Source: an uncultured candidate division WPS-2 bacterium (GTDB lineage Bacteria > Vulcanimicrobiota > Vulcanimicrobiia > Vulcanimicrobiales > Vulcanimicrobiaceae). Taken from it: a stretch of 34,765 nt of DNA. A program made the translations under genes and the position numbers. This document shows, piece after piece, positions 19,018-21,896 of this stretch. The stretch is taken from the NCBI GenBank assembly GCA_937910425.1, contig CALEOJ010000090.1:1-34765 (forward strand). The letters run 5' to 3'. Position 1 is the stretch's first letter. Every line of letters begins with the position of its first letter. Under the pieces are notes generated by a model. The model was given only the letters and a program-made list of their open reading frames with translations. It was not told the origin of the DNA and did not search any database.

Positions 19018-19698
19018 TCAGCGCCGGCCATGTCGAAACGCGTCGTGCAGCGTCGCGTGTACCCGAGCCGGCAAGCGCATCTCCCCGAGCGCGGCCAGCG
19101 TCGCGGCGACGTCGTACGGCGTGCTGTGCAGCGTCATCCGGCCGTCTTCCCATACCGCGTAGTGGGCTAGCCCGCCGGCGGTGCTCATTCCGACGCTACC
19201 GGGGTTCACCGCGACCGCGCCATCCAGGGCAACCACGCCTTGGAGATGGGTGTGACCGACGACGACGACGGCGGCGTTGGGGACGGCGGCTCGCACGGAA
19301 GCTCCAGCCTCGGAGAGCGGCGCATAGTGGTGAACGTCCTCGACTGTTGCGTGCGTCAGCGCGATCGTGACCGAATCGAGACGAATCGTCGCAACGCGCG
19401 GCAAAGAGCGCAGATAGCCGAGATCGCTCTCATCAAGCAGCGCGCGATGAAGGAGGCGCGTCGCCTCGCTCGCCTCGCGCATGCTCGACGGCACGCCGTC
19501 CCCTTCGTCGAACGCAAGGGCCCTGTCATGATTTCCGTGGACGACGGCGGCGGCGTTCGTTCGGCACCACGAGATGACGGCGCGAGGATCGGGACCGTAG
19601 TCGACGAGGTCGCCCGCGCAGAGGACCACATCGGCCGCAGGCAGCACCTCGAGGGCGAACGGGTTCGCGTGCAGATCCGAGACGAGGAGCACGCGCAC
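19018..19698 (-). CDS. YfcE/MJ0936-like metallophosphoesterase
   Basis: LLVSDLHANPFAL, LCAGDLVDYGPDP, VVHGNHDRAL, VVVGHTHLQG motifs. Confidence 0.92.
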   Translation of the reverse strand: MRVLLVSDLHANPFALEVLPAADVVLCAGDLVDYGPDPRAVISWCRTNAAAVVHGNHDRALAFDEGDGVPSSMREASEATRLLHRALLDESDLGYLRSLPRVATIRLDSVTIALTHATVEDVHHYAPLSEAGASVRAAVPNAAVVVVGHTHLQGVVALDGAVAVNPGSVGMSTAGGLAHYAVWEDGRMTLHSTPYDVAATLAALGEMRLPARVHATLHDAFRHGRR

Positions 19699-21241: not shown

Positions 21242-21274
21242 AAACGTCCTCCTTCCCGACGCGGAGCGCCGGCG

Positions 21275-21336
21275 CAAGAGGAGTCATCGGCCCTTTCGTG
21301 GGCGGTTTCGCTGATGCGAGGCGGACTCCACCGCCC
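21275..21336 (-). promoter_or_regulatory. Fluoride riboswitch (crcB motif) aptamer
   Basis: Minus strand GGGCGGUGGAGUCCGCC[UCGCAUCAGCG]AAACCGCCCACGAAAGGGCCGAUGACUCCUCUUG: hairpin GGCGG/CCGCC, loop GGAGUC perfectly complementary to GACUCC (pseudoknot), AAACnGCCC...GGGCnGAUG core. Upstream of antiporter-crcB operon. Confidence 0.88.
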
Positions 21337-21404
21337 GTGTCGCCGGGCAGCCGCCCGGGTCCATTGCTCCTGCTCTTGCCCCGTCTACATCCGGATTCCT
21401 CGCG

Positions 21405-21896
21405 CTAGCGCGCGCGGTTCGCCGCGAGCACGTCACGCAGACCCGATCCGGCGACGCCGAGCGCGAACAGGCTGAGCGCCCACGATAACATGCCGTAGTC
21501 GGCCCGAACGAACGCGGTCGGATCGTGCAGCCAGGCCGCGGCGAACGGCGCAAGGAGCGCCAGCAGCGCACCGTACACGATTCCCATCAGCGCGTGCGTG
21601 ACGCGCTCCCCGCCGGGCAGCCGGCGCGTGTGGTCCTCGACCAGGAAGTCGGAGAGCGTGATCGCGATCTCGGCCGCGAAGAGCAGCAGGTACGCGACGA
21701 CCAGCGCGCCGTGCGGCTCGAGCCAGGCCAGCGATGCGAACAGCACCGCGTACACGGCGTCGCGCGCCGCGTGCAGCCGCAGCTCGGTCACGGCGCGCGG
21801 ATCGGCGGGGAGCCGGCCGATCCACTCGTGAAAGACCAGCGTGTCGAACGCGCCCATCCCGCCGAGCAGGAGCAGAACGCCGAGCGCGGCCGTCAC
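21405..21896 (-). CDS. Membrane protein of unknown function
   Basis: 163 aa with 4-5 hydrophobic segments; ATGA-type overlap with the upstream DUF4166 gene. Confidence 0.7.
   Translation of the reverse strand: MTAALGVLLLLGGMGAFDTLVFHEWIGRLPADPRAVTELRLHAARDAVYAVLFASLAWLEPHGALVVAYLLLFAAEIAITLSDFLVEDHTRRLPGGERVTHALMGIVYGALLALLAPFAAAWLHDPTAFVRADYGMLSWALSLFALGVAGSGLRDVLAANRAR

Follow-up and report, generated by a model that had tools for sequence, protein, structure and literature searches.

A fluoride riboswitch aptamer with a G6-C38 pair upstream of a CPA2-type antiporter operon in a Candidatus Eremiobacterota bacterium

Introduction

The 34,765-nt stretch of DNA analyzed here (the window) comes from a soil bacterium of the Candidatus Eremiobacterota lineage, with 'palsa' MAGs of the same phylum as its nearest named relatives. 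On its minus strand, a structured leader precedes genes for an antiporter, a short CrcB-like protein and a metallophosphoesterase. Is this leader a fluoride riboswitch, and which of the operon's products would then confer tolerance to fluoride? The data bearing on these questions are a sequence match, covariation, a gene fusion and a conserved gene context. With high confidence we read the leader as a genuine fluoride riboswitch that would turn on translation of the CPA2-type antiporter operon, in which the CrcB gene is probably dead and the antiporter would be the effective fluoride-tolerance transporter.

Results and discussion

Identity and architecture of the aptamer

A scan of the window against 4227 Rfam families returned a sole match, RF01734 (Fluoride), at 21344-21271 on the minus strand (34.5 bits, E 4.6e-6), covering the model at full length (1-64 of 64). 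The rest of the genome contains no further RF01734 match. The score lies 0.5 bit above the gathering score of 34 bits, and two features likely account for this marginal value, namely a hairpin inserted in J1/3 and a double change from A6-U38 to G6-C38 (T. petrophila numbering). A first-pass annotation of this DNA had called a fluoride riboswitch here and proposed a cmsearch against RF01734; every aptamer element that it described is present on the minus strand (Table 1), and the call is borne out by the match just above gathering and by the aptamers that precede orthologous and more distant CPA2 genes across some ten phyla.

P1, P3 and the pseudoknot are found in the window sequence and covary over 58 aligned relatives. 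Across this alignment, 15 pairs are formed at 98.6% (P1 at 100%) and 11 pairs have changed on both sides, a result equaled by 0 of 500 shuffles, while the linchpin nucleotides A40 and U48 show no variation. The window aptamer resembles those of T. petrophila and B. cereus in P1, P3, the six-pair pseudoknot, A40 and U48, and the fluoride-response genes downstream; it differs from them in having G6-C38 for the reversed Watson-Crick A6-U38, in the J1/3 hairpin and in its near-gathering score. Judged by its sequence, the RNA in front of the CPA2-type antiporter gene truly belongs to RF01734, and it probably binds fluoride.

Table 1. Features of the riboswitch and its operon in the window
Feature	Coordinates	Strand	Details and support
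Fluoride riboswitch aptamer RF01734, G6-C38 form with J1/3 hairpin	21271..21344	-	Rfam, 34.5 bits
P1 stem-loop	21320..21335	-	GGCG 21335-21332 with CGCC 21323-21320; sequence
P1 loop content	21331; 21329-21324	-	G6; pseudoknot 5' strand L1 GGAGUC
Position 6 (T. petrophila numbering), G for A, partner C38	21331	-	Alignment columns 8/61
J1/3 mini-hairpin UCGC-AUCA-GCGA	21308..21319	-	Hairpin fold of insert in 28/28 G-C-form relatives
P3 stem	21290..21303	-	GCCC 21303-21300 with GGGC 21293-21290; sequence and alignment
Position 38, C for U, compensates G6	21289	-	Pair counts in clade and other phyla
Pseudoknot 3' strand GACUCC, also anti-Shine-Dalgarno	21280..21285	-	Complement of GGAGUC 21329-21324
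Linchpin A40-U48	21287 (A40); 21279 (U48)	-	U48 directly 3' of pseudoknot strand
Antiporter Shine-Dalgarno AGGAGG	21248..21253	-	Paired by pseudoknot 3' strand in predicted fluoride-free fold
CPA2-type antiporter, 387 aa	20078..21241	-	GTG start; TM5 'TD' motif; PFYFLKAG with K273; PF00999, E 2.2e-37, 129.2 bits
DUF190/CrcB deletion chimera, 106 aa	19714..20034	-	PF02537 positions 34-103 of 103
Metallophosphoesterase, last operon gene	19018..19698	-	PF12850, E 4.8e-21; same place in L056

Two aptamer sub-forms and a compensated tertiary pair

RF01734 matches occur in 63 of 117 genomes of the class and fall into two sub-forms. The canonical sub-form, GGCGAUGG...GGC-U-GAUGGCUCC, is about 64 nt long. 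The sub-form of the window runs from GGCGGUGGAGUC through the J1/3 hairpin insert to GGC-C-(G/A)AUGACUCC and spans 73-80 nt. Both are present together in several genomes, sometimes as divergent leaders (for example, at 3474482 and 3474760 in genome G105), and they share downstream gene families, among them CPA2 and a NuoH-like gene.

At positions 6 and 38, the 58 aligned Eremiobacterota aptamers have either A-U (30) or G-C (28) with zero exceptions, in an alignment that leaves out Rfam-like matches in G046, G027, G103 and a few more genomes that are seemingly spurious, cut or oddly inserted. The corresponding counts in other phyla are A-U 84, G-C 9, G-U 1 and A-C 1, with the G-C form falling in Alicyclobacillaceae (Alicyclobacillus) and Myxococcales. 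The Eremiobacterota counts by themselves could reflect a single event; because the G-C form is also found in other lineages, a chance association between the two positions is unlikely. The letters G6 and C38 in the window, in place of A6-U38, thus represent a compensatory change that is seen in two other lineages too. The first-pass annotation had correctly picked out GGUG for the usual GAUG as a variant but missed the matching U-to-C change at 21289, and the mini-hairpin that it listed as an oddity is present in all examined G-C-form aptamers of the clade. The insert and the swap are not strictly coupled: in Myxococcales, G-C occurs in aptamers that lack the insert, and in Deltaproteobacteria and Chloroflexi the insert accompanies A-U.

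A reversed G-C pair has the same geometry as the Levitt pair of tRNA. We take B. cereus A10 to be the equivalent of T. petrophila A6, a mapping based on sequence and on the reference aptamers. Probing identified A10-U38 (B. cereus numbering) as a reversed Watson-Crick pair that forms upon fluoride binding (PMC10687018). In its text, a 2026 covariation study of RF01734 gives the covarying helices as P1, the pseudoknot and P3, and we found no earlier report of a compensated 6-38 pair in the open papers searched. The swap between A6-U38 and G6-C38 adds evolutionary evidence for a tertiary pair known otherwise from crystal structures, NMR and chemical or enzymatic probing, and the two forms provide a natural mutant pair ready for testing it.

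The G6-C38 form, a distinct sub-form that shares genomes with the A6-U38 form, could also be a variant aptamer for a ligand other than fluoride. We regard this as very improbable, given that the 6-38 change is compensated, that A40 and U48 are invariant and that the two forms precede the same families.

Predicted control of translation

The pseudoknot 3' strand, read as GACUCCU, is complementary to the antiporter Shine-Dalgarno sequence AAGGAGG (21254-21248, minus strand). For all six of the closest CPA2 leaders (that of the window and five orthologous ones), the predicted fluoride-free fold places the Shine-Dalgarno in a helix with the pseudoknot strand. This complementarity extends beyond the conserved bases: across 118 leaders, the non-conserved bases 3' of the pseudoknot strand match those 5' of the Shine-Dalgarno with a mean of 2.40 (for example, GACAAU ... 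AUUGUC AGGAG in locus L036), against a mean of 0.95 after partners are exchanged among leaders, where none of 2000 exchanges reaches 2.40. The window leader itself has zero contiguous pairing outside the CUCCU/AGGAG core by a strict count, and with the pseudoknot imposed, four residual pairs that partly cover the Shine-Dalgarno are still predicted by an energy model that does not include pseudoknots.

Because pseudoknot formation and Shine-Dalgarno sequestration compete, translational ON control is predicted. Without fluoride, GACUCCU would pair with AAGGAGG and the ribosome site would be hidden; with Mg2+ and fluoride, the aptamer would fold, GACUCC would pair with GGAGUC as the pseudoknot and the ribosome site would be freed. 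We infer this fluoride-ON direction for the window leader, since its helix ends at the core and the pseudoknot lies outside the energy model. The same kind of strand exchange is already known from transcriptional fluoride riboswitches, with a terminator stem as the competitor (PMC13273304). The window leader resembles the translational fluoride riboswitches of P. syringae and B. pseudomallei (PMC13273304) in that it is predicted to control translation, not termination, and to swap the pseudoknot strand with a downstream stem; unlike these, it has G6-C38 and the J1/3 hairpin and precedes a different gene.

We further note that a gene for a 163-aa protein with no Pfam match (21405-21896, same strand) lies upstream, with about 60 nt between its end and the aptamer, and is collinear in locus L055. 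The riboswitch could lie inside a longer transcript.

A deletion chimera in place of CrcB

The antiporter, the CrcB fragment and the metallophosphoesterase follow the aptamer in the arrangement first annotated. The 106-aa ORF read there as a short CrcB is a fusion. Its residues 1-20 (20034-19975; MADFKPGQLLRIFVNERDTW) derive from the start of DUF190 (compare MADFKTGQLLRIFVNERDTW in L053), its residues 21-106 derive from CrcB TM2-4, and the junction can be placed at the nucleotide level (GACACCTGG|AGCGGT). The intact order is preserved in the neighboring genome G113 (L056), where CPA2 is followed by two DUF190 genes, a 129-aa CrcB and the metallophosphoesterase. An independent assembly, G114 (L055), carries a separate, larger deletion that leaves 75 aa of CrcB. 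A conserved three-helix CrcB subfamily is ruled out by the intact L056 operon and by the different breakpoint of the G114 remnant.

As a result of the fusion, the short CrcB lacks TM1, and the four-helix Fluc/CrcB domain is incomplete. The conserved TM2 Asn is also lost (INVSG in L056, DTWSG in the window). Compared with Fluc/CrcB (PF02537) and its DUF190 (PF02641) companion, the ORF thus retains CrcB TM2-4 but begins with 20 residues of DUF190 and is missing TM1 and the TM2 Asn. Its score against TIGR00494 crcB (NCBIfam) is 62.3 bits, below the cut-off of 80.45. Between the window and L055, the antiporter is strongly constrained (dN 0.010, omega 0.03), with higher values for the CrcB remnant (dN 0.17, omega 0.26).

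Could the ORF still be a working three-helix CrcB, or its shortness an assembly error? The frame is open, it has its own Shine-Dalgarno and omega of the remnant is still below 1. We nevertheless consider both improbable, as TM1 and the TM2 Asn region are gone, the score falls short of the crcB cut-off, and the other deletion in the independent G114 assembly points to decay within the lineage. Since the ORF covers only positions 34-103 of the profile and falls below the cut-off, it appears to be a relic of a fluoride operon whose channel function has probably been lost, and the first-pass argument that a short CrcB independently supports fluoride sensing is correspondingly weaker. A profile search of the genome found no CrcB match besides the chimera and no CLC match. 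With the chimera probably no channel, the antiporter would be the operon's effective fluoride-tolerance transporter.

Another decayed CrcB is found in the same genus: in G105, a second CrcB (C1:1459967-1460304) is split in two (profile positions 2-45 and 47-102).

The antiporter subfamily and its spread

The nearest solved structures to the antiporter are those of NapA. It scores 90.7 bits against TIGR00932, below the cut-off of 238.3, so by 'CPA2-type' we mean its fold and its nearest relatives and do not imply strict subfamily membership. The TM5 motif is QD in KefC and DD in NapA (PMC11150392). The window antiporter shares with NapA (4BWZ) and KefC the Na_H_Exchanger fold by sequence, the core ion-binding Asp (equivalent to NapA D157), which is found in the TD motif of most subfamily members, and the TM11 Lys. 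It is distinguished from them by TD for DD/QD, by its link to a fluoride riboswitch, by its sub-cut-off TIGR00932 score and by an added Lys/Arg in PFYFxKAG. This basic residue is present in 80 of 80 subfamily loci, and the same position in two alignable same-genome paralogs (PFFLISVG and PLFFAYSG) has neither Lys nor Arg.

The 80 loci, identified in a genome scan, span about ten phyla and include Eremiobacterota, Deltaproteobacteria, Alicyclobacillus, Chloroflexi, Acidimicrobiaceae, Gemmatimonadetes, Dormibacterota, Verrucomicrobia, Bacteroidota, Nitrospirota and others. An aptamer lies at most 450 nt upstream of CPA2 in 62 of them; among the remainder, several have one farther upstream in the locus and some contigs are cut. 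In a set of 50 CPA2 genomes, mostly non-Eremiobacterota, 44 have RF01734 matches. Aptamers upstream of orthologous and distant CPA2 genes across these phyla are stronger evidence from context than CrcB. A scan of viral contigs with the antiporter gave zero relatives. In the close relative L096 (antiporter 91% identical), no aptamer is present upstream and the antiporter starts directly after the preceding gene.

Homeostasis or fluoride export

The association of fluoride riboswitches with antiporters is already known: the crcB motif was earlier reported upstream of mutS, of K+ or Cl- transport genes and of formate hydrogen lyase genes (PMC2864571), and in a 2024 review Na+/H+ antiporters are the second commonest riboswitch-associated genes, a link ascribed to pH homeostasis (PMC11139923). 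In line with that review, the antiporter is somewhat likely to be a conventional Na+(K+)/H+ exchanger that corrects the upset of pH and cations caused by HF entry, with fluoride leaving by another route or passively. The retained fold, ion-binding Asp and TM11 Lys fit this role. Two sets of observations count against it. Neither CrcB nor CLC is found in 24 of the 50 CPA2 genomes, or in 19 of the 31 CPA2 genomes within the class, and the subfamily has TD for DD together with the invariant added basic residue that the two paralogs lack.

A second possibility, which we hold only tentatively, is that the subfamily exports fluoride, coupled to H+ or a cation, in place of Fluc and CLC-F. Within the class, CLC is present in 2 of the 31 CPA2 genomes against 36 of the 86 others (Fisher p 2e-4, taking related genomes as independent and from incomplete MAGs). 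The decay of CrcB beside an intact, strongly constrained antiporter and the invariant basic residue in the core also speak for export, and there is a precedent in the eriC-F genes, which were initially taken for Cl- transporters (PMC7266159). Against export, the ion-binding Asp is kept, the difference for CrcB within the class is not significant (p 0.15, under the same assumption of independence and with the same incomplete MAGs), and 11 of the 31 CPA2 genomes keep a CrcB match. In addition, we know of no anion-transporting CPA2.

Both the homeostasis and the export readings are compatible with the riboswitch itself. Should export apply, the TD/PFYFxKAG subfamily, spread over some ten phyla, might join Fluc and CLC-F as a third exporter class in bacteria and might have made CrcB dispensable in this lineage. 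For genomes in which no Fluc or CLC was found, the antiporter offers a concrete candidate fluoride exporter, and such a function would explain how these bacteria survive in fluoride. In the open papers searched, we found no report of the spread of a single subfamily through genomes with neither known exporter, nor of CrcB decay next to an intact antiporter.

Fluoride islands in related genomes

As many as 6-7 fluoride riboswitches are present in genomes of the family; most of them lie in clusters of 10-25 kb, often as divergent leaders. Such fluoride islands are found at L033-L034 (G105), L035-L036 (G019), L044 (G095), L042-L043 (G085), L037 (G063), L047 (G034), L049 (G033), L050-L051 (G100) and L052 (G116). 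Island operons under riboswitches encode Nudix, a dynamin-like GTPase, a paired MutS-domain protein, DUF190, CrcB, a phosphoesterase and complex-I-like proteins. Among the riboswitch-driven operons is one of the 'formate hydrogen lyase' type (families F3, F4, F0, F5 and F13; L033, L036, L037, L045, L046, L047 and L078). The large subunit of this operon has no CxxC motif in 20 of 20 copies (several of them cut by contig or locus ends), and because of this the complex is probably without a NiFe site and ion-pump-like, not a hydrogenase.

Recurrent small proteins of these clusters that lack a Pfam match are the coiled-coil-like F12 (L049 3675; about 100-145 aa), F23 (L047 3321; about 230 aa) and F24 (L042 8007; about 216 aa). 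Finally, about ten copies of one ~405-aa family (F11) lie in the G105 island (L033, L034). F11 looks like a repeated mobile element and may have assembled or rearranged this island.
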